A DNA stretch of 64,000 nt from Actinocorallia herbida (GTDB lineage: Bacteria > Actinomycetota > Actinomycetes > Streptosporangiales > Streptosporangiaceae). The stretch is from the NCBI RefSeq assembly GCF_003751225.1, contig NZ_RJKE01000001.1, positions 744,001 through 808,000 on the forward strand. Reading direction: 5' to 3'. Both the position numbers and the translations under genes were made by a program. The stretch's first letter is position 1, and each line of letters opens with the position of its first letter. Shown here in pieces: positions 37,400-47,692 of this stretch. Below the pieces are notes generated by a model. It saw only the letters and a list, made by a program, of their open reading frames with translations. It did not search any database and was not told where the DNA came from.

Positions 37400-39466
37400 A
37401 TGAAGGACCCGAACAACACGCGGGACACGCGGCCCCGCCTCGGCTCGCCGTTGTGGAGCTACCTGACCGCGGTCACCGCCGCCGGCACCCTGTTGCTGCT
37501 GTTCACCCTGCCCCAGCTCAGCGGCCACGACCTGGAGACGCTGCTCACCGAGCCGCGCTTCTGGCTGCTCGCCGGGTTCGTCGTCTTCGGCGAGCTGAAA
37601 CCGATCATCACGCCCGGGTCCAACGAGAACAACGGCGCGTCCACCTCCACCACCTTCACCTTCGCCACCCTGCTGTACGCGGGCCTGCCGATGTCCCTGC
37701 TGCTCCAGGGCGTCGCACTGGTGATCTGCGGGGTGTTCCGCCGGCACTCCCCGCACCGGACCGCCTTCAACGTCGCCCAGTACTCGCTCGCCCAGGCCGC
37801 CGCGGCGACGGTGCTGTGGGGGTTCGGCCTGGGCGCCGACCCGTCCAACGTGTGGGTGCCGCACGGCTCCGACCTCGCCCCGGTGATGCTCGCCGGGATG
37901 ACCTACTTCCTCTTCAACGACGTCCTCGTCGCCGGGGCCGTCGCGCTGCACGAGCGGGTCGACCTGGTACGGGTGCTCCGCTGCGACCTCGCCTACCAGG
38001 TGCTCGCCCACCTCGCGCTGCTCGGCCTCGCCCCGATCGTCGTGGTCGTCGTGGACCGGTCCCCGGCGTTCATCCCGCTGATCATCCTGCCGTTCACCGC
38101 CGTCTACCTCACCGCGGCCGCGTCCGTCCGGCGCGAGCACCAGGCCCTGCACGACGGGCTCACCGGCCTGCCGAACCGCAAGCTGCTGTTCCTGCGCGCC
38201 GAAGAGGCGCTGACCGCCCGGCAGCTGCGCGAGGCGCGCGGCGACCGGCTCCAGAAGGTCGGGCTGTTCCTCATCGACCTGGACCGGTTCAAAGAGGTCA
38301 ACGACACCCTCGGCCACCCCACCGGCGACCGGCTGCTCCAGATCATCGCGCACCGCCTCACGCACAGCGTCCGGCCCGGCGACCTCGTCTCCCGGCTCGG
38401 CGGCGACGAGTTCGCCGTCCTCCTCCCCTCGGTCCGCGACGTGCACGCCGCCCGCGAGGTGGCCGTCAGGCTCCGCGCCGCGCTCAGCGAACCCGTCAGG
38501 CTCGACGGGATGAGCTTCGACCTGGAGGGCAGCGTCGGCATCGCGCTCAGCCCCGACCACGCCCCCGACTTCGAACTCCTTCTCCAGCGCGCCGACGTCG
38601 CCATGTACGTCGCCAAGGAGTCCCGCTCCGGCGTCGAGATCTACTCCCCGGCCAGCGACCGCAACTCGCCCGCCCGCCTCGGCCTGCTCGGCGACCTGCG
38701 CCGCGGCATCGACCGGCACGAACTCGAACTGCACTACCAGCCCAAGGTCCAGCTCGCGGACGGGGAACTCCTCGGCATGGAGGGCCTGCTGCGGTGGCGC
38801 CACCCCGAGCGCGGGCTCCTCGGCCCCGAGGAGTTCCTGCCGCTCGCCGAGCAGACCTACCTGATGAAGGCGATCACCCACTCCGTCGTGCGCGACGCCC
38901 TCGCCCAGGCGCACGCCTGGTGGTCCGACGGCCTCACCGTCCAGGTCAGCGTCAACGTCTCCGGCCGCGATCTCCTCGACGGCCAGCTCGCCGAGACCAT
39001 CACCGGCGAGCTCATGGCCCGGCGGCTGCCCGCCGCCGCGTTCGGGCTGGAGATCACCGAGCGGATCCTCATGAACGAGTCGGCCTACGCCTCCGAGACC
39101 GTCCGGTCCCTCGCCGACCTCGGCATCCCCCTCAGCCTCGACGACTTCGGCACGGGCTACTCCTCGCTCGTCCGGCTCAAGCGGCTGCCCGTGAAGGAGG
39201 TCAAGATCGACGCCTCCTTCATCCGGCGGCTCACCGACTCGGCCGAGGACGCGGTCATCGTCAGGTCCATCATCGACCTCGTGCGCACCCTCGGGCTCCG
39301 GTCGGTCGCCGAGGGCGTCGAGGATGCCGAGACCGCGGAACGGCTCGCCGAGATGGGCTGCGACAGCGGCCAGGGCTGGCACCTGGGCCGTCCGATGGAA
39401 CCCGCGGAGGCCACCGAGTGGATGCGGGGGCGCCTGCGGCTGTCGGAGGCGGCCGCCCCGCGCTGA
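37400..39466 (+). CDS. Membrane GGDEF-EAL protein, c-di-GMP turnover
   Basis: A 688-residue protein. About six membrane helices fill residues 18-230; a GGDEF domain follows (LTGLPNRKLLF, RLGGDEFAVL near 331) and then an EAL domain (from about 440). The GGDEF keeps the RxxD inhibitory site (RPGD) five residues upstream. In the EAL domain the signature is MEGLLRW (EGL rather than EAL); other catalytic positions (NVSGRD, EITE, DDFGTGYSS, KIDASF, AEGVED, GQGW) are intact. It resembles the Streptomyces RmdB-type enzyme that also sits beside ligA, from memory. GAGGAAG precedes the ATG at 37400. Confidence 0.93.
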   Translation: MKDPNNTRDTRPRLGSPLWSYLTAVTAAGTLLLLFTLPQLSGHDLETLLTEPRFWLLAGFVVFGELKPIITPGSNENNGASTSTTFTFATLLYAGLPMSLLLQGVALVICGVFRRHSPHRTAFNVAQYSLAQAAAATVLWGFGLGADPSNVWVPHGSDLAPVMLAGMTYFLFNDVLVAGAVALHERVDLVRVLRCDLAYQVLAHLALLGLAPIVVVVVDRSPAFIPLIILPFTAVYLTAAASVRREHQALHDGLTGLPNRKLLFLRAEEALTARQLREARGDRLQKVGLFLIDLDRFKEVNDTLGHPTGDRLLQIIAHRLTHSVRPGDLVSRLGGDEFAVLLPSVRDVHAAREVAVRLRAALSEPVRLDGMSFDLEGSVGIALSPDHAPDFELLLQRADVAMYVAKESRSGVEIYSPASDRNSPARLGLLGDLRRGIDRHELELHYQPKVQLADGELLGMEGLLRWRHPERGLLGPEEFLPLAEQTYLMKAITHSVVRDALAQAHAWWSDGLTVQVSVNVSGRDLLDGQLAETITGELMARRLPAAAFGLEITERILMNESAYASETVRSLADLGIPLSLDDFGTGYSSLVRLKRLPVKEVKIDASFIRRLTDSAEDAVIVRSIIDLVRTLGLRSVAEGVEDAETAERLAEMGCDSGQGWHLGRPMEPAEATEWMRGRLRLSEAAAPR

Positions 39467-39550
39467 GGCCCGTTCGCACCGGGCCGCGGGCCGGGTGGCC
39501 ATAGGATGGGAGGGAATCCCAGTCGATCACTCCGGAACGGCACTCAACTC

Positions 39551-39844
39551 ATGTCCATCACCCGTGACGAGGTCGCGCATCTCGCCCGGCTCTCCAGGCT
39601 GGCGCTCGGCGACGACGAACTCGACCACTTCGCCGTCCAGCTTGACGCGATCGTGTCCGCGGTCGCGCGGGTGCAGGAGGTGGCGGCCGAGGACATCCCG
39701 CCGACCACCCACGCGCTGCCGCTGACCAATGTCTTCCGCGCCGACGAGGTGCGCCCGTCGCTCGGGAACGCCGAGGCGCTCTCCGGCGCCCCCGCGGCCG
39801 AGGCCGAGCGGTTCCGGGTGCCGCGCATCCTGGAGGAGGACTAA
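39551..39844 (+). CDS. gatC: Glu/Asp-tRNA amidotransferase subunit C
   Basis: A 97-residue GatC. It begins [19 protein letters not shown] and ends with the conserved [20 protein letters not shown] and [10 protein letters not shown], the belt that wraps around GatA. It stabilises the GatAB heterodimer that amidates Glu-tRNA(Gln) or Asp-tRNA(Asn). The stop overlaps the gatA ATG by one base (TAATG). The frame is open upstream to 39506, but the family start is the ATG at 39551. Confidence 0.96.
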
Positions 39845-41328
39845 TGATCTTCAAGACCGCAGCAGAGCTGGGCGCCCTCATCGCGTCCGGTGAGACGACC
39901 TCCGTCGAGGTCACGCAGGCGCACCTCGAGCGCATCGAGCAGGTCGAAGGCAAGGTCAACGCCTTCCTGCACGTCGCCGCCGAGTCCGCGCTCGCGCAGG
40001 CCGCCGAGGTCGACCGCCGCCGCGCCGCGGGCGAGGAGCTGGGCCCGCTCGCCGGCGTCCCCGTCGCGCACAAGGACGTGTTCACCACCAAGGACATGCC
40101 CACCACCTGCGCGTCGAAGATCCTCGAAGGCTGGGTGCCGCCGTACGACGCGACGGTCACCGAGCGGCTGCGCGCCGCGGGCCTGGTGATCCTCGGCAAG
40201 ACCAACATGGACGAGTTCGCGATGGGCTCCTCCACGGAGAACAGCGCCTACAAGACCACCAGCAACCCCTGGGACCTCACCCGCATCCCGGGCGGTTCCT
40301 CCGGCGGCTCCTCGGCCGCCGTCGCCGCCTACCAGGCGCCGCTGGCCACCGGCACCGACACCGGCGGTTCGATCCGCCAGCCGGCCGCCGTCACGGGCCT
40401 GGTCGGGATGAAGCCGACTTATGGCGGATCGTCCCGGTACGGGCTTGTCGCCTTCGCCTCCTCGCTCGACACGCCGGGGCCGTTCGCCCGGAACGTCCTG
40501 GACGCGGCGCTGCTGCACGAGGCCTTCTCCGGCTACGACCCGCGCGACTCGACCTCCATCAACGAGCCGGTCCCGGCGGTCGTCGCCGCCGCGAAGCAGG
40601 GCGACGTGGCGGGCCTGCGCGTCGGCGTCGTCAAGGAGTTCGGCGGCGAGGGCTACCAGCCCGGCGTCCTCAACCGCTTCAACGAGACCGTCGAGCTGCT
40701 GGAGTCGCTCGGCGCGAAGGTCGTCGAGGTCTCCTGCCCGGCCTTCGACTACGCGCTGTCCTCCTACTACCTCATCGCCCCGTCCGAGGCGTCCTCGAAC
40801 CTCGCCCGCTTCGACGCGATGCGCTACGGCCTGCGCGTGGGCGACGACGGCACCCACTCGGCCGAAGAGGTCATGGCCCTCACCCGCGCGGCCGGCTTCG
40901 GCCCCGAGGTGAAGCGCCGCATCATCCTCGGCACCTATGCCCTCTCCTCGGGCTACTACGACGCCTACTACGGCAAGGCCCAGCAGGTCCGCACCCTCAT
41001 CGCGCGCGACTTCGACGCGGCCTTCGCCCAGGTGGACGTCCTGATCTCGCCCACCACCCCCACGACGGCCTTCCCCATCGGAGAACGCGCCGACGACCCC
41101 ATGGCCATGTACCTGGCCGACCTCTGCACCATCCCGTCCAACATGGCCGGCAACGCCGCCATCTCCGTCCCCTGCGGCCTCGCCGACGAGGACGGTCTCC
41201 CGGTCGGCCTCCAGATCATGGCCCCCACCCTCGCCGACGACCGCTGCTACCGCGTCGCCGCCGCCGTCGAGAAGGCCCTGGAATCCCGCTGGAACGCCCC
41301 CCTCCTGTCGAAGGCCCCGGCCCTCTAG
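39844..41328 (+). CDS. gatA: Glu/Asp-tRNA amidotransferase subunit A
   Basis: A 494-residue amidase-signature enzyme that releases ammonia from glutamine. The Ser-cisSer-Lys triad is visible: Lys in [12 protein letters not shown], cis-Ser and nucleophile Ser in [13 protein letters not shown] and [13 protein letters not shown]. The C-terminal region [20 protein letters not shown] is typical. It is the middle subunit of the Gat complex. In most relatives gatB follows closely, but here the ATPase and TOPRIM-like genes start 27 bases after the gatA stop. Confidence 0.96.
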
Positions 41329-41354
41329 GCGCCGAAGAAGGGGCGGCACGTCAA

Positions 41355-42602
41355 ATGATCACCAACATAAGGATCAACGGCTTCAAGTCCTTCCTGGACT
41401 TCGAACTCGACGTGCCCCCCTTCCTCGCCCTGGTGGGCCCCAACGCCAGCGGCAAATCCAACCTCTTCGACGCACTCGCCCTCGTCGCCGACGTGGTGCA
41501 GCACGGCCCGCAGCGTGCCCTGACGCTTCAGCCGCGCGGCTCCGCCCTGGACATGTTCCACCGCTTCGAGGACGGCAGTTCGCTCGATCAGCTGACGATC
41601 GCGGTCACCGCGCTCGTTGAGCCCGGCTTCGGACGGACAGGCGCTCTGCCCATGGAGTGCACGCTCGTACTCGACAAGTCAGGCGAGTATCCGCAGGTGA
41701 TCGAGGGCCGCCTGCGGGTCATCCCCCGCATCGAGTACGGGTCGCTGGGGGAGGCGGTGGCGAACGGGCATTGGAGTCTGCTTGCGGTGACGGGTGTGGC
41801 CGGTGGTCACATCGACTATGCCGACGACGACGCGGAGCCAGAGGCCGAGTGGGCCGACTTCTCGTTGGTGGCCGATCATTCGTCCAACTCGATCCTGCTG
41901 GAGCTGTTCCGCCTGGAGTGCGCCACGTGGCGGCCGTATGCGCTTGAGCCAAGGGTCATGCGGCTACCGGTCAGCGCGCCTGACCGCGGGCCCCTGAGCC
42001 TGGATGGCCGGAACCTGGCGGCGGTGCTCCACCGCCTCGACCGCGAGAAGGTCCTCTGGCGGCTCGAAGCGGACCTTGCCGCGCTGATCCCAGGTTTGCG
42101 CGAGATCAAGCCATTGCTGGACGAACGGCGGCAGGAGTTCGATTTCGACGCGGTCTTCGCCGGGGTCGGCTCCGTCCTGCCCAGAGTTCTCTCAGACGGC
42201 ACGTTGCGCGCGCTGGCGCTTCTGGCAGCGGCGCATGATCCGGGATTTCGGGGCGTCCTCGCGGTCGAGGAAGTGGAGAACGGCTTCCACCCGGGCCGGG
42301 TCGCCGAACTCGTTCGTCGTCTCACCAGAGATCTTGCGGACCTTGGTGAAGGTGAGGAGGCCCATGGCCTTCGGCAGGTGCTCCTCACCTCGCATTCACC
42401 CGCCCTGGTCGCCGCCCTATGGGCCGAGCACAGTGCGGGCTTGCGGTTCGTGGATGTCGTCACCCGGATCGATGGCCCTGGCCATCGCACTTCGCGGGTC
42501 ACCCGGGTGCTGCCGGTCCGTGAGGATGCCGAACCGGGTGCGGCAGCGACTCCTTGGGATGTGGAGCGGTTCCTGGCGACGGTGCGGGAGGGCGATCTTT
42601 GA
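41355..42602 (+). CDS. OLD-like AAA ATPase (AAA_21/ABC-fold), first gene of an inserted pair
   Basis: A 415-residue ABC-class ATPase of the OLD/RecF-like type. Visible are the N-terminal ITNIRINGFKSFLDFEL, Walker A GPNASGKSN (residues 28-36), the signature VLSDGTLRALALLA, Walker B VLAVEEVENGFHPGRV and the H-loop LLTSHSPALVAAL. A variable region of about 200 residues separates the halves. There is no fused TOPRIM domain, but the next gene supplies a TOPRIM-like protein, coupled through TTGA. This is the layout of two-gene anti-phage ATPase-nuclease modules (PARIS and split OLD types are known examples); function here is inference. Local G+C is lower than in the flanking gat genes. Confidence 0.88.
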   Translation: MITNIRINGFKSFLDFELDVPPFLALVGPNASGKSNLFDALALVADVVQHGPQRALTLQPRGSALDMFHRFEDGSSLDQLTIAVTALVEPGFGRTGALPMECTLVLDKSGEYPQVIEGRLRVIPRIEYGSLGEAVANGHWSLLAVTGVAGGHIDYADDDAEPEAEWADFSLVADHSSNSILLELFRLECATWRPYALEPRVMRLPVSAPDRGPLSLDGRNLAAVLHRLDREKVLWRLEADLAALIPGLREIKPLLDERRQEFDFDAVFAGVGSVLPRVLSDGTLRALALLAAAHDPGFRGVLAVEEVENGFHPGRVAELVRRLTRDLADLGEGEEAHGLRQVLLTSHSPALVAALWAEHSAGLRFVDVVTRIDGPGHRTSRVTRVLPVREDAEPGAAATPWDVERFLATVREGDL

Positions 42603-43186
42603 GTCGTCCTCTGGTGCCCGGACTCGTCGCAGAAGGCGAGTCGGACCATGACTTCCTGCGGCCGGTGATCTTCAGATTCCTGAAAGAGCTGCTGATCGAG
42701 AATCCGGCCGCCGATTTCGACCTGTCGGAGACGCTGTCGTCCACCTGTGTGAAGAAGCACGGGAAAGAGCGGTTCACCGAGGCGGCGACGAAGCTCGGGA
42801 AGCGCTGCCATCTGGTGTTCGTGCACGCCGACCACAACGAGGCGCATGAGGCCGTGGCGCTGAAGACCGTCATCGCTTGCCGGACCGTCGTTCTCGTCCC
42901 CGAGCGGGAGACCGAGTCGTGGATGCTCGCCGATCCCGACGCGTTCGCGAAGGTGCGCGGGGCGGACCTCGGGTCGTTGCCGAAGGATCCGGCGGCGGCC
43001 GAGAGGGTCGCTGAGCCCAAGGCCATGCTGGCCAAGGTGCTGCGTCCGGCGGGGATCACTCGGCCGACCGACTATTTTGGACGTCTCGGCGAGGACATCA
43101 GCTTGCAGGTGCTGGGACGGATACCTGCTTTCGCCCGGTGGGCGGACGAGACCAAAGAAGCCCTGAAAGGATTGGGATATCTGTGA
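42599..43186 (+). CDS. TOPRIM-like DUF4276-family protein, partner of the AAA ATPase
   Basis: A 195-residue protein. Start TTG 42599 overlaps the ATPase stop (TTGA) and follows a strong GGAGGG. The N-terminus is [18 protein letters not shown] (Glu 12 and Gly 13 in a TOPRIM motif-1 position); [11 protein letters not shown] (Asp 78) and [19 protein letters not shown] follow, the pattern of TOPRIM-like DUF4276 or RloB proteins. The assignment is by motif memory. The middle metal motif is weak (HADHN rather than DxD), so catalysis is uncertain. The C-terminus may recognise the partner or the target. Its stop overlaps the gatB GTG (GTGA), so all three genes form one translational chain. Confidence 0.8.
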
Positions 43187-44679
43187 GCACGCTGGTTCCC
43201 TTCAGCGAGGCGCTGGAGAAGTATTCGCCGGTGCTGGGCATTGAGACGCACATCGAGCTGGGGACTGCGTCGAAGATGTTCTGCGGGTGTGCGACGGGGT
43301 TCGGGGCAGAGCCGAACACTCAGGTTTGCCCGGTCTGCCTGGGGTTGCCCGGGTCGTTGCCGGTCGTCAACGAGAAGGCGATCGAGTTCGCGATCCGGAT
43401 CGGGCTGGCGCTCAACTGCGACATCGCTGAGTGGTGTCGGTTCGCCCGGAAGAACTACTTCTATCCGGACATGCCGAAGGACTTTCAGATCTCGCAGTAC
43501 GACGAGCCGATCTGCTTCGAGGGGTACCTCGACGTCGAGGTCGAGGGCGAGACGTACCGGATCGGGATCGAGCGGGCGCACCTGGAGGAGGACACCGGCA
43601 AGTCCACCCATGTGGGCGGGGCGACCGGGCGCATCCACGGCGCGGACCACTCGCTGGTCGACTACAACCGGTCGGGCATCCCGCTGATCGAGATCGTCAC
43701 CAAGCCGATCGAGGCGACCGGGGAGAAGGCCCCGCTCGTCGCTCGGGCCTACGCCACGGAGCTGCGCGAGCTGGTGCGGGCGCTGGGCGCGTCGGACGTG
43801 CGCATGGAGGAGGGCTCCATGCGGTGCGACGTGAACGTGTCGCTCATGCTCAAGGACGCCACCGAGTGGGGCACCCGGACCGAGACCAAGAACGTGAACT
43901 CGCTGCGCAGCGTCGAGCGGTCCGTCAGGTACGAGATCGAGCGGCAGGCCGGCGTCCTGGACGCCGGGGGCAAGATCACCCAGGAGACCCGCCACTTCCA
44001 CGAGACCGACGGGAGCACGAGCCCCGGCCGGTCCAAGGAGGAGGCGCAGGACTACCGGTACTTCCCCGAGCCCGACCTGGTGCCGGTGGCGCCGTCGCGG
44101 GCTTGGGTCGAGGAGATCCGGGCGACCCTGCCGGAGCTGCCCGCCGCCCGACGGGTCCGGGTGAAGGCCGCCTGGTCGCTGAGCGACGAGGAGTTCCGCG
44201 ACGTGGTCAACGCGGGCGCGCTCGACCTCATCGAGGAGACGATCGCCGAGGGCGCCTCGCCCGCCGCCGCGCGCAAGTGGTGGATGAACGAGCTGTCCCG
44301 GACCGCGACGACCCAGGGCGTCGAGCTGTCCGAGCTGCCGATCACCTCCGGGCAGGTCGCCCGCATCCAGGCGCTGGTGGACGCCGGGGAGCTGAACGAC
44401 AAGCTCGCCCGCAAGGTGTTCGAGGGCGTTCTGGCGGGCGAGGGCACGCCGGACGAGGTCGTGGCGGCCCGCGGCCTGAAGGTCGTCAGTGACGAGGGCG
44501 AGCTGCTCGCGCTCGTCGACCAGGTGATCGCCGCCAACGCCGACGCCGCGCAGAAGGTGCGCGACGGCAAGGTCGCCGCGGCCGGCGCGCTCGTCGGCGC
44601 GATCATGAAGGCCAGCCGCGGCCAGGCCGACGCGGGCCGGGCCCGTGAGCTGATCCTGGAGCGTCTCGGCCAGGCCTAG
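43183..44679 (+). CDS. gatB: Glu/Asp-tRNA amidotransferase subunit B
   Basis: A 498-residue GatB. It shows [40 protein letters not shown], the kinase/transamidase region [20 protein letters not shown] and RPLV-like [16 protein letters not shown], with C-terminal helical and YqeY-like domains to the end ([19 protein letters not shown]). It recognises and phosphorylates the misacylated tRNA. GTG 43183 overlaps the TOPRIM-like gene stop. The first 250 bases use fewer G/C third positions than the rest. A terminator follows at 44707. Confidence 0.95.
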
Positions 44680-44741: not shown

Positions 44742-45019
44742 CCCCGCGGTGATCACGCTGTGTCCCGATGGCGGCAATCCGCTGTCTTCCAGATCACAAA
44801 ACGGCAAGCCGGGGCACCGCCTGCCCTGCTGCGATTACGCGCCGTGAGATTCTGTCGCCGGATGGGCACTCACCCTCAATCGGTCCGTGACCTACGGAAC
44901 GTAGATTGATGGGCACGGTGCCGACATGGGTCGGTGCCCGTACAGGCAGCGCCGCCTACGTCCCACCTCGAATGCCGTGGCCGTCCGGCGGGCCGCGCGA
45001 ACCAGGAGCACGAACGACG
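44742..45019. other. Intergenic region upstream of the second GGDEF-EAL gene
   Basis: About 280 bases with no convincing gene. Open frames that would extend the GGDEF-EAL protein upstream (TTG 44906, ATG 44909) encode a Pro/Gly-rich stretch with no family match, so it is treated as leader. A promoter is expected here; a TAGATT (44902-44907) is present but no clear -35 partner was found. Confidence 0.4.
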
Positions 45020-47692
45020 ATGACGGGCGAGGAATCGCCGCGCCGCCTACCGGCGCAGGCGCTGCCGCTGACCATCGTCGTCGCGTTCGGCGCGCTGTAC
45101 GCGATCGGGGCGCTGCTGGGGTGGACCAGCGACTGGTTCGCCGCGGGAGCGGGCGCCGCCGCGTGCGGCAGCCTTCTGTACGCCGCCTGGCACAAGCCGG
45201 GGGACACCGGCTCCTGGCGCTGGTTCGGCGCGGCGGCGGGGCTGTGGGGGGTCAGCGGGGTCGTCCGGGCGGTCTCCCGGTTGGTGCTGCCGGGGCAGGT
45301 GATGTCGCTGTCGCTGGCCGACCTGTTCGGGGTCGCCGCGATCGTCGCGTTCGCCGCGGGCTTCATCGTGCCGACCAGGCTGCCGCGTTCGCCCAGGCAG
45401 TGGTTGAGATATGGCGCCGACTCCTATGTGTGTGGAGTCGCGCTGTTCGTCCTGGGCTGGGACGCGATCTTCGGGAACCTCTTCCGGCTGTCGGGCGAGG
45501 CCCCGGTGCAGTTCCTCCTGGAACTCGTCTTCCCGCTGCTGGACATCGTCCTGGTGTGCGCGCTGCTGCCGTTCGTCCTGGGCGCGGCCCGCAGGCAGCG
45601 GCCGACGGCGGTCATCGCCTATCTCGCCCTGCTCGCGCTCACCGCGGGCGACGTGGTCAACACCGCGGTGCGGCTGGAGAGCGGCACCTCGGTCATCGGC
45701 GACGTGTTCCGCTTCGGCGGCCTCCTGCTGCTGGGCGCGGCCCCCTGGATAGGCACGGGATCACGCCGGGGCGGGGTGCGCGGCCGGATGGTCGGTCCCG
45801 GCATCGCGCCCGCGCTGCTCGCGGGGGCCGCCGCGATGTTCGTCGCCGGGCACACGCTGACGGGCAGCCGCCCGGTCGAGCCCGTCGTGCTGATCGTCGC
45901 GGGCACCGCCCTGCTCGTCCTCATCGCCCGCCTCACCGACCTGCTGCGCGAGAACGACAGGCTCAAGTCGGAGATCCGCGCGGGCGAGGAACACTTCCGG
46001 GCGCTCGCCGAGAGCGTCGAGGACCTCGTGCTGATCTGCGACGAGCCGGGCACCGTCCAGTACGTCAACGCGGGGCAGCAGTGGAACACCGGGCACGCCC
46101 TGCCCGACCTCCTCGGCCGCCCGCTCACCGAACTGCTGCACTCCGAGGACGTCGCGGAGGTCGTCGCGGCGCTGAACCGGTGCGACGAGGGCGCGCGCGA
46201 GCCGCTCAGGCTGGCCTGCCGGCTCCGAACCGAGGACGGCACCTGGCTGCCCACGGAGTCCACCTTCTCCAGATACGCCCCGGGCCGGGTGCTGATCACC
46301 GTCCGGGACCTGTCGGAGGAGGCCGCGCTCAAGCGCCAGGTCGACCATCTGACGTTCCACGACGGCCTCACCGGACTGCCCAACCGCGCCTACCTCGAGG
46401 AGCGGACCCGTCAGGTGCTGGCCCGCCGCAGCCCCGTCAGCGCGGTGATCTTCGTGGATCTCGATGGGTTCACCGCCGTCAACGACTCGGCCGGGCACGC
46501 GGCCGGCGACCAGGTGCTGGCCCAGGCCGCACGGCGGCTGCGCGCCGCGGTCCCCGCCGACGACACGGTCGCGCGCTGGGGCGGCGACGAGTTCGCGGTC
46601 CTGGTCGAGACGGCCTCCGACGCCCAGTCCGTCGTGGATCTCGCCGAGCGCCTGCTCCGGGTGCTGTCCGCCGAGCCCTACCGGGTGGGCGAGCGCGGCA
46701 TCGCGCTGACCGCCGGGGTGGGCGTGGCCTTCGCCGACGACGACCTCGCCTCCACCACCGAGGCGCACAGCCTCGACGAGACGGGCTCGGCCTCGCTGAT
46801 CCGCAACGGCGACCTGGCGATGACCAGGGCCAAGGAACTGGGCGGCGGGCGCGTAGAGGTGTTCGCAACCCAGATGCACGCCGCCGTCGTCCGCCGGATG
46901 GAACTGAGCAGCGACCTCCAGCGCGCCCTCGCCGAAGAGGAGTTCGAGGTCGTGTTCCAGCCGGTCTTCGACCTCGCCGACGGCAGGGTGACCGGGGTCG
47001 AGGCGCTCGCCCGCTGGCGCCGCGACGGCGATCTCGTGCCGCCTCAGGACTTCCTGGACGCCGCCGAGGAGTCCGGCCTGATCGTGCCGCTCGGCGCCTG
47101 GATCCTGCGCGAGGCGTGCGGCCGGGCCGCGCGCTGGCGGGCCGAGGGCTGGGAGATCGGCCTGTCGGTGAACTTCACCGCCCGGCAGATCGCCGCCCCG
47201 AAGTTCGCCGCGACCGTCGCCGCCGCGCTGACCGAGACCGGCCTGCCGCCGCACGCCCTCACCCTCGAGGTGAAGGAGGAGGTCCTGGTCGAGCAGATCC
47301 AGGGCGGCGAGCAGAACGACGAGCGCCTCGCGGTGCTCCGGGAGCTCGGCGTGCGCCTGGCGATCGACGACTTCGGCACCGGCTACGCCTCCCTGGCCTT
47401 CCTCGGCCAGCTCCCCGTCGACGTCATCAAGATCGACCCGTCCTTCACCGCGGGCCTCGACGGTGACGAGACCCGCACCCTCCTCACCCGGACGATCATC
47501 AGCCTCGGCTCCGACCTGGGCCTGACCGTCGTCGCCGAGGGGATCGAGAGCGCCGCCCAGCAGGAGGCCCTGCGCGGCATGGGCTGCCACCGGGGCCAGG
47601 GATTCCACCTGGCACGGCCCATGTCGGCCGCGCGCATCGACGCGGAGATCCGTCCCGGGGTCGTCCCGCTGCCCGGTGTCCAGGCCGGTTGA
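45020..47692 (+). CDS. Membrane PAS-GGDEF-EAL protein, c-di-GMP turnover
   Basis: An 890-residue protein. About nine to ten membrane helices (to about residue 310) precede a PAS domain (HFRALAESVEDLVLICDEPG and onward), a GGDEF domain (RWGGDEFAVL near 520) and an EAL domain (GVEALARWRR near 661). In GGDEF the inhibitory RxxD is absent (PADD at that position). The EAL signature and other catalytic positions (NFTARQ, LEVKEE, DDFGTGYASL, IKIDPSF, AEGIES, GQGF) are intact, so it is likely bifunctional or a phosphodiesterase. ATG 45020 has AGGAG 11 bases upstream. It lies just upstream of the ilvB control region, an arrangement I recall from Streptomyces. Confidence 0.92.
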   Translation: MTGEESPRRLPAQALPLTIVVAFGALYAIGALLGWTSDWFAAGAGAAACGSLLYAAWHKPGDTGSWRWFGAAAGLWGVSGVVRAVSRLVLPGQVMSLSLADLFGVAAIVAFAAGFIVPTRLPRSPRQWLRYGADSYVCGVALFVLGWDAIFGNLFRLSGEAPVQFLLELVFPLLDIVLVCALLPFVLGAARRQRPTAVIAYLALLALTAGDVVNTAVRLESGTSVIGDVFRFGGLLLLGAAPWIGTGSRRGGVRGRMVGPGIAPALLAGAAAMFVAGHTLTGSRPVEPVVLIVAGTALLVLIARLTDLLRENDRLKSEIRAGEEHFRALAESVEDLVLICDEPGTVQYVNAGQQWNTGHALPDLLGRPLTELLHSEDVAEVVAALNRCDEGAREPLRLACRLRTEDGTWLPTESTFSRYAPGRVLITVRDLSEEAALKRQVDHLTFHDGLTGLPNRAYLEERTRQVLARRSPVSAVIFVDLDGFTAVNDSAGHAAGDQVLAQAARRLRAAVPADDTVARWGGDEFAVLVETASDAQSVVDLAERLLRVLSAEPYRVGERGIALTAGVGVAFADDDLASTTEAHSLDETGSASLIRNGDLAMTRAKELGGGRVEVFATQMHAAVVRRMELSSDLQRALAEEEFEVVFQPVFDLADGRVTGVEALARWRRDGDLVPPQDFLDAAEESGLIVPLGAWILREACGRAARWRAEGWEIGLSVNFTARQIAAPKFAATVAAALTETGLPPHALTLEVKEEVLVEQIQGGEQNDERLAVLRELGVRLAIDDFGTGYASLAFLGQLPVDVIKIDPSFTAGLDGDETRTLLTRTIISLGSDLGLTVVAEGIESAAQQEALRGMGCHRGQGFHLARPMSAARIDAEIRPGVVPLPGVQAG

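Follow-up and report, generated by a model that had tools for sequence, protein, structure and literature searches.

Between gatA and gatB of Actinocorallia herbida we found two genes, encoding an OLD/SMC-like ABC ATPase and a small DUF4276-like protein, that probably form an immune module of the HEC-01 type, one whose home is the gatA-gatB junction in one actinomycete lineage and whose ATPase carries a hypervariable, proposed sensor domain. The same insert occupies the same junction in 74 of the 155 junctions viewed in the family and in one further genome (G304), which is not chance. Several features of the pair can be read from the sequences themselves, namely, its place in gat, the overlapping layout, the ATPase motifs, the one or two origins of the gat linkage among the pairs compared, the repeated loss, the differences between alleles in place, and the hypervariability of the ATPase middle; expression with gat, the defense role, the sensor role of the ATPase middle, the nuclease activity, and recombination as the mode of exchange are what we infer from them.

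The insert in the gatCAB operon and its two products

On the forward strand of the window (the whole 64,000-nucleotide stretch analyzed here), the gene order is gatC (39551..39844; Pfam GatC, 65.2 bits; the first operon gene, with a start inferred inside the open reading frame [ORF] 39506-39844), gatA (39844..41328; Pfam Amidase, 546 bits), the HEC-01A-like ABC ATPase gene (41355..42602; 415 aa; ATG start), the gene of the HEC-01B-like small protein, a proposed TOPRIM-type nuclease (42599..43186; 195 aa; TTG start), and gatB (43183..44679; NCBIfam GatB, 879 bits; GTG start). Coordinates and Pfam/NCBIfam matches agree with the original prediction that the ATPase and small-protein genes interrupt gatCAB between gatA and gatB. 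A 4-nt overlap of each gene with the next had also been claimed, and it exists between the ATPase TGA and the DUF4276 TTG (TTGA) and between the DUF4276 TGA and the gatB GTG (GTGA), but not between gatA and the ATPase gene: gatA ends at 41328, and the two are therefore 26 nt apart. An alternative TTG start of the small gene at 42554 was set aside because the start with the 4-nt overlap is allowed in 59 of 74 pairs. The tight 4-nt overlap of the DUF4276 gene with gatB is possible in 34 of the 73 pairs examined and is looser in the rest. The sequence AAAGGA (43166..43171, forward strand), which lies within the DUF4276 gene, is likely to be the ribosome-binding site of gatB. This arrangement suggests that the pair is expressed with gat and, together with gatB, is translated from the operon; a promoter/terminator scan at the locus, which is uninformative at such GC, found none. 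The third-position GC (GC3) of the pair is about 0.81 versus 0.96 in its gatA and gatB, and in 13 of 13 loci checked it is 0.74 to 0.91 in the pair versus 0.94 to 0.99 in gatA and gatB. The small gene is single copy in the genome. Two GGDEF-EAL proteins (37400-39466 and 44906-47692) flank the gat operon in the window. The upstream protein has a match immediately before gatC-gatA in 46 of the 95 related loci searched, many of them too short to show one; two Streptomyces and some Micromonosporaceae loci have it as well.

The first product matches AAA_21 of Pfam (99.5 bits; cutoff, 27) and HEC-01A of PADLOC (PDLC04184; E = 9.4e-79). It is, as had been predicted, an OLD-like ABC ATPase with intact motifs (all forward strand): Walker A, GPNASGKSN (GPNASGKS, residues 28-35; 41436..41459); the ABC signature, SDGTLR (SDGT, residues 280-283; 42192..42203); Walker B, LAVEEVENG (LAVEEVE, residues 302-308; 42258..42278); and the H-loop, SHSP. 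Residues G28, G33, K34, S280, D281, G282, E305, and E308 are kept in all 89 distinct gat-linked pairs, and E306 and H347 of the H-loop are each kept in 85. An AlphaFold2 model built from a 56-row alignment (pLDDT, 91.4) recovered SMC heads, PtuA of Septu, Rad50, and the OLD nuclease from the PDB (best E = 9e-12).

The second product matches HEC-01B of PADLOC (PDLC04210; E = 1.4e-37), as do all 56 aligned relatives, and matches Pfam DUF4276 with 26.2 bits (E = 1e-5), under the cutoff of 30.2; 55 of the 56 relatives match DUF4276 at E ≤ 0.01. The motifs AEGES, HADHN, and PERETESW that had been pointed out in it are all present in the window sequence. They correspond, on the forward strand, to E12-G13 after strand 1 (motif 1; 42632..42637), H76-x-D78 after strand 3 (motif 2; 42824..42832), and RETESW with E104, T105, E106, and W108 (motif 3; 42905..42922). 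In the 56-row alignment, E12 and H76 are invariant and D78 is kept in at least 90% of the rows; the invariance of motif 3 there is partly built in, as the loci were sought with the pattern ETE[ASG]WxLAD. Among the 89 gat-linked pairs, E12 and H76 are each found in 83, D78 in 77, E104 in 74 (D in 13), T105 in 82, E106 in 85, and W108 in 86. Judged by sequence, the ATPase is better conserved than the presumed nuclease center of its partner, because K34, S280, G282, and E305 are invariant in these 89 pairs, while the DUF4276 motif residues vary.

The AlphaFold2 model of the DUF4276 protein (same 56-row alignment; pLDDT, 94.8) has the order strand-helix-strand-helix-strand-helix-strand, which we take to be that of the TOPRIM domain, with E12-G13 placed after the strand of residues 7-10 (E12 following the first strand pair), H76-x-D78 after that of residues 72-76, and RETExW after that of residues 95-99. 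The EG motif of TOPRIM (Glu after strand 1) is present; the DxD after strand 3 is absent, with HxD in its place, His replacing the first Asp. Among the best 50 PDB matches listed by Foldseek for this model, there was none at E ≤ 0.001 and no recognizable TOPRIM protein was named. Against viral models, an RloB-like protein ranked fifth (E = 0.04; prob = 0.91), and an hhalign comparison with nine RloB proteins gave a weak match (P = 0.053) with roughly collinear motifs. The RloB family is held to be TOPRIM-like; two of its members are encoded in the same genome outside the window (G000:C1:8380612 and G000:C1:7949705). From the model, a TOPRIM-type fold is likely for the DUF4276 protein; the missing canonical DxD and the lack of a significant PDB match count against reading it as a TOPRIM nuclease. 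Since E12 is absent in 6 and D78 in 12 of the 89 pairs, some copies may not be nucleases. The pairs without the presumed catalytic E12 are L108, L113, L130, L153, L155, and L157, of which five belong to the branch holding Streptosporangium and the sixth, L130, has its DUF4276 gene split over two frames. Natural single-frame fusions (L126 from G209, 678 aa; L243 from Streptomyces sp. NRRL WC-3626, 600 aa) argue that the ATPase and the DUF4276 protein act together.

Occurrence, decay, and ancestry of the gat linkage

The window's family is represented by 341 genomes. Searches of these detected gatB in 336, a DUF4276 relative (E ≤ 0.001) in 87, and the pair between gatA and gatB in 75 (20 genus codes; 74 viewed junctions plus G304); no pair was found in the other 266. 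The 155 junctions viewed, which span 50 of 68 genus codes, comprise 74 with the pair, 7 with a remnant, 7 with a spacer of 60 to 400 nt, 50 with a spacer of <60 nt, and 17 with other genes, and as genomes with strong matches were fetched on purpose, 74 of 155 is not a frequency. A pair was counted where open frames covered about 300 or more of the 392 ATPase and >130 of the 199 DUF4276 model positions, so the counts rest on open frames and not on individually checked starts; they include two genomes with damaged DUF4276 genes (G068, split over two frames, and G077, with the middle missing), and in G063, gatA is not in view.

All 77 family genomes with a match of E ≤ 1.2e-7 have it at gat (73 pairs, G304, and 3 remnants), and the family matches away from gat have E values of 2e-6 or weaker. 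Likewise, in a profile search of 297 genomes of the order, all matches of E ≤ 4.4e-21 were at gat, and the best elsewhere had an E value of 4e-16. We regard the loci away from gat as other HEC-01-like pairs because 19 of the 20 such loci fetched have the same kind of ATPase. Outside the family, the best match in a sample of 296 genomes of the class had an E value of 7e-14. The third Actinocorallia genome (G001) has no pair, and its gatA and gatB overlap by 4 nt.

Clear remnants or scars are present in 14 family genomes beyond the 75, the junctions showing seven remnants and eight scars. Six remnants, of 229 to 776 nt, keep the 5' end of the ATPase gene, and by profile, five of these six short ones keep some DUF4276 sequence reaching to or near the 3' end of that gene; the seventh (G066, the same as L129) is a 1.7-kb in-frame fusion of near full length in which part of DUF4276 is missing. 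Of the 57 empty or short junctions, 8 retain a copy of the DUF4276 3' end, and the other 49 show no scar. Six scars are of type I (≤4 mismatches in 21 nt) and two are of type II (≤1 in 27 nt), while each of 715 random 60-nt stretches of gatA had at least 8 and 10 mismatches, respectively, as a control for junction stretches that are not all 60 nt long. G079, whose junction was not viewed, has a similar weak match beside gatB. Remnants and scars occur in 12 genus codes, in 5 of which no pair was seen; the pair has been lost repeatedly, often by internal deletion. The survey of this junction in relatives that the original prediction had proposed thus reveals a pair that is not core-like: it was found in 75 of 341 family genomes, evolves much faster than gatA and gatB, and commonly has decayed copies, and we rejected the core-gene explanation on its presence and decay.

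Other occupants of the junction were also observed. The 17 junctions with other genes (among L171-L201; also L131 and L237) belong to other genera and have one or two opposite-strand genes between gatA and gatB. All 17 contain at least one opposite-strand ORF, taken from a GC3-based gene guess, of a single blastp cluster (E = 1e-8, single linkage), and we therefore rejected a general hotspot for any insert. Allonocardiopsis (L237) has the opposite-strand cluster gene as well as the pair, and Sphaerimonospora thailandensis (L101, the same as G211, and L230) has a type I and a type II pair in tandem at one junction.

The named relatives came from a scan of one genome per species with one short pattern, the best 80 of 128 matches giving 79 loci; a contig scan with a single-protein query confirmed none and was repeated with an alignment query. 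Besides Actinocorallia, Actinomadura, Herbidospora, Microbispora, Nonomuraea, Streptosporangium, and others, gatA adjoins the pair in three Streptomyces (L241, L244, and L250) and in ten Micromonosporaceae (L251 to L253, L256, L257, L259 to L261, L263, and L268), where gatB follows 0.1 to 3.6 kb further on (not in view in L259 and L261). The nearest relative of the window's pair among the best 80 of 128 is that of Actinocorallia sp. API 0066 (identity: DUF4276, 71%; ATPase, 64%; gatA, 94%; gatB, 93%). In 13 Streptomyces relatives (L238 to L240, L242, L243, L245 to L249, L262, L265, and L267), neither gatA nor gatB lies in the ≤4 kb fetched on each side, so gat is unnecessary for the pair. Up to 10 of these 13 loci share other neighbors, which by eye we take to be a helix-turn-helix regulator (10 of 13), a methionine aminopeptidase (9 of 13), and a heme oxygenase (8 of 13).

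In a tree of 114 concatenated pairs (89 gat-linked and 25 not), the linkage label needs two changes, versus a mean of 22.9 changes in 500 shuffles, none of which was as low as 2. A second tree, with the gat rows thinned and 24 non-gat pairs added (19 from family genomes and 5 from other genomes of the class; 51 gat-linked versus 49 not), likewise needs two changes versus a shuffled mean of 33.4. The trees leave out L265, L267, and L288 (no full pair) and unnamed loci with duplicate DUF4276 sequences. The pairs fall into three groups: (i) type I, together with the non-gat Streptomyces; (ii) type II, together with the Micromonosporaceae; and (iii) pairs from other phyla. This topology points to one or two origins of the gat linkage among the pairs compared, a reading limited by the selection of the named rows for their similarity to the window. 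With the root in the group from other phyla, the linkage arose once and was left once; if the root lies elsewhere, two gains are possible. Searches of phage and plasmid collections matched 1 of 50,697 phage and 3 of 72,556 plasmid records, at 25 to 30% identity. ARAGORN found no tRNA gene in the window, no direct repeat family (minimum, 14 nt) was reported in 40800-43700, and the trees oppose repeated landing; insertion of a mobile element was rejected on these grounds.

Variation of the ATPase middle and allele differences in place

From 49 named full-operon loci we drew 33 comparisons, mutually dependent through shared ancestry, in which the DUF4276 proteins are ≥80% identical. Median identities are 94% for gatA, 93% for gatB, and 90% for DUF4276, and in the ATPase, they are 82% for the first 60 residues, 51% for the middle (residues 61-240; 41535..42074, forward strand), and 90% for the last 175 residues. 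By this comparison, the middle, our proposed sensor, is hypervariable and its neighbors are far slower. Its median dN (0.42) exceeds the median dS of gatA (0.31) and gatB (0.28); the middle dN is greater than both in 20 of the 33 comparisons and greater also than the dS of the ATPase C-terminal part and DUF4276 in 10. Relaxed constraint alone should be insufficient for a dN above the dS of the neighbors, and diversifying selection and/or exchange of old alleles is needed. The dS of the middle itself, about 1.2, a value that misaligned codons can inflate, favors old alleles. Exceptions are 6 of the 33 comparisons, in Streptosporangium, some Nonomuraea, and Micromonospora, in which the middles are 72 to 99% identical. 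Over whole genes, all 19 comparisons made gave dN/dS values of <0.4 for each of the two genes, so positive selection is not seen at that level.

The middles within Microbispora type I and within Actinomadura are mostly about 40 to 57% identical to one another. For most of the 26 rows listed, the closest middle belongs to the same genus or to tree neighbors of it, and cross-genus exchange of middles is not seen, favoring exchange within genera or selection over far imports. Whole alleles also differ between conserved flanks, as illustrated by examples from 40 listed of 248 comparisons: Actinomadura spongiicola and A. pelletieri (L212 versus L226) have 98% identical gatA and 97% identical gatB with 44% identical DUF4276, and two Microbispora (L217 versus L274) have 97%, 98%, and 34%, respectively. 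Species of Microbispora and Herbidospora have either type I or type II between near-identical flanks. Either recombination through the flanks or differential loss from an ancestral tandem arrangement could yield such differences. The pairs of Microbispora siamensis and Microbispora sp. H11081, on the other hand, are distinguished chiefly by the ATPase middle.

Relation to known systems and proposed function

The closest known counterpart is HEC-01, a computed candidate system in PADLOC, whose HEC-01A and HEC-01B are matched by both proteins and whose genes are likewise adjacent; the window pair differs in its fixed address inside gatCAB. The PMC10855318 table, which expands HEC as "Hma embedded candidates," does not describe the gatCAB place, and the portion of PMC12724379 consulted merely lists HEC-01. 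The literature searched contained no mention of DUF4276 and nothing joining gatA/gatB or GatCAB with antiphage defense.

The original prediction had likened the pair to PARIS (the AriA ATPase plus the AriB TOPRIM protein, DUF4435). The general plan, an OLD-type ATPase with a separate TOPRIM-like protein and a best match to a candidate defense system, stands, but the partner is DUF4276 and not DUF4435, with HxD instead of DxD; DUF4435 was found in 0 of the 26 genomes searched, the window's own included, Pfam giving DUF4276 only, and we rejected membership in PARIS for lack of this partner (for remarks on OLD-TOPRIM, see the excerpt of PMC12839542). The further suggestion in the original prediction, that a defense unit expressed with tRNA amidation could sense translational shut-off, gained no support from the analysis. 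Mad3 and Mad4 of MADS are distant matches, and membership was rejected on the curated NCBIfam cutoffs (ATPase, 90.8 of 420 bits; small protein, 16.4 of 160 bits). The Mad4 model matches in 13 of 56 relatives, and the direct neighbors of the window pair are gatA and gatB. The ABC ATPase fold is common to PtuA of Septu/retrons and the OLD nuclease. The partner of PtuA is an HNH protein, and the OLD nuclease has its TOPRIM domain in the same chain as the ATPase, while the window encodes the ATPase and DUF4276 in two genes; in relatives L126 and L243 they share a single frame. In genomic setting, the pair resembles the core defense hotspots of Pseudomonas aeruginosa, where variable immune genes lie between fixed core genes and, in the sections of PMC10250203 consulted, transfer through the flanks by homologous recombination is suggested to be possible. 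As described in those sections, cDHS1 holds many kinds of systems over 1 to 224 kb, in contrast to the single two-gene kind in the window, which lies inside an operon and overlaps gatB.

We propose that the ABC ATPase would hold the DUF4276 protein in check until its fast-changing middle recognizes a product of an invader. This event, coupled to the binding or hydrolysis of ATP, would release or assemble the DUF4276 protein, which, as a metal-dependent TOPRIM-type nuclease, would attack RNA or DNA of the host or the phage and so stop the infected cell. The module would be translated with gatB, inherited at the gat address, and often lost by internal deletion, its alleles being exchanged in place, probably by homologous recombination via the conserved flanks and not by an integrase. 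The usual view of defense genes has them moving from site to site, and the near-immobility of the pair counts against this immune reading. The fixed address, loss, in-place exchange, and hypervariable domain are a better fit for a sensor-effector pair exposed to parasite pressure than for a role in housekeeping or tRNA quality.

The tie to gat may nonetheless be physiological. A partner of GatCAB that monitors or edits the amidation of tRNA-Gln and tRNA-Asn, or cleaves these tRNAs when amidation fails, would accord with the overlapping genes, with a linkage of one or two origins across three actinomycete groups, and with the related TOPRIM effector AriB of PARIS, for which the consulted part of PMC12409363 gives cleavage of tRNA-Lys, tRNA-Thr, and tRNA-Asn. 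We consider it unlikely, given 266 of 341 family genomes with no pair found (155 junctions and G304 viewed) as opposed to 336 with gatB, the frequent decay, the hypervariable middle, the 13 Streptomyces relatives with no gatA or gatB in the ≤4 kb fetched on either side, and the other HEC-01 pairs that family genomes have away from gat. For the HEC-01-type immune module that we favor, steady expression and recombination via core flanks would suffice to explain the tie.

Still less probable is a housekeeping or regulatory ATPase pair riding in the operon with no immune function, which could draw on the low dN/dS of both genes in all 19 comparisons and on the OLD-family protein Cran1, reported as essential for the cell cycle of one archaeon in the portion of PMC12796447 consulted, but is opposed by the patchy presence, decay in 12 genus codes, in-place differences between alleles of just 44% identity, and the hypervariability. 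We would give equally little weight to a selfish addiction-like module, with the ATPase as antidote, DUF4276 as toxin, and an essential operon as its shelter against deletion (Pfam labels AAA_21 a putative AbiEii toxin/type IV toxin-antitoxin domain, and the likely gatB ribosome-binding site within the DUF4276 gene means that some deletions would presumably harm gatB), because frequent internal deletions removing most of both genes indicate that loss is tolerated and a hypervariable domain is unexpected in a simple addiction module.

A more specific form of the immune reading, which we hold to be a long shot, is that of a receptor with long-lived divergent alleles at gat whose TOPRIM-type effector acts on the tRNAs (Gln and Asn) completed by GatCAB; if true, the operon would produce these substrates and also be able to destroy them. 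More broadly, the HEC-01-type pair would be an immune module long resident at one site, where it overlaps an essential gene, and with its diversity concentrated in one domain, in contrast to the usual picture of defense genes traveling in islands. Nature provides junctions in every state (intact, decayed, scarred, empty, and swapped) as well as species pairs whose main difference is the ATPase middle, and both would be direct material for learning what the middle recognizes.
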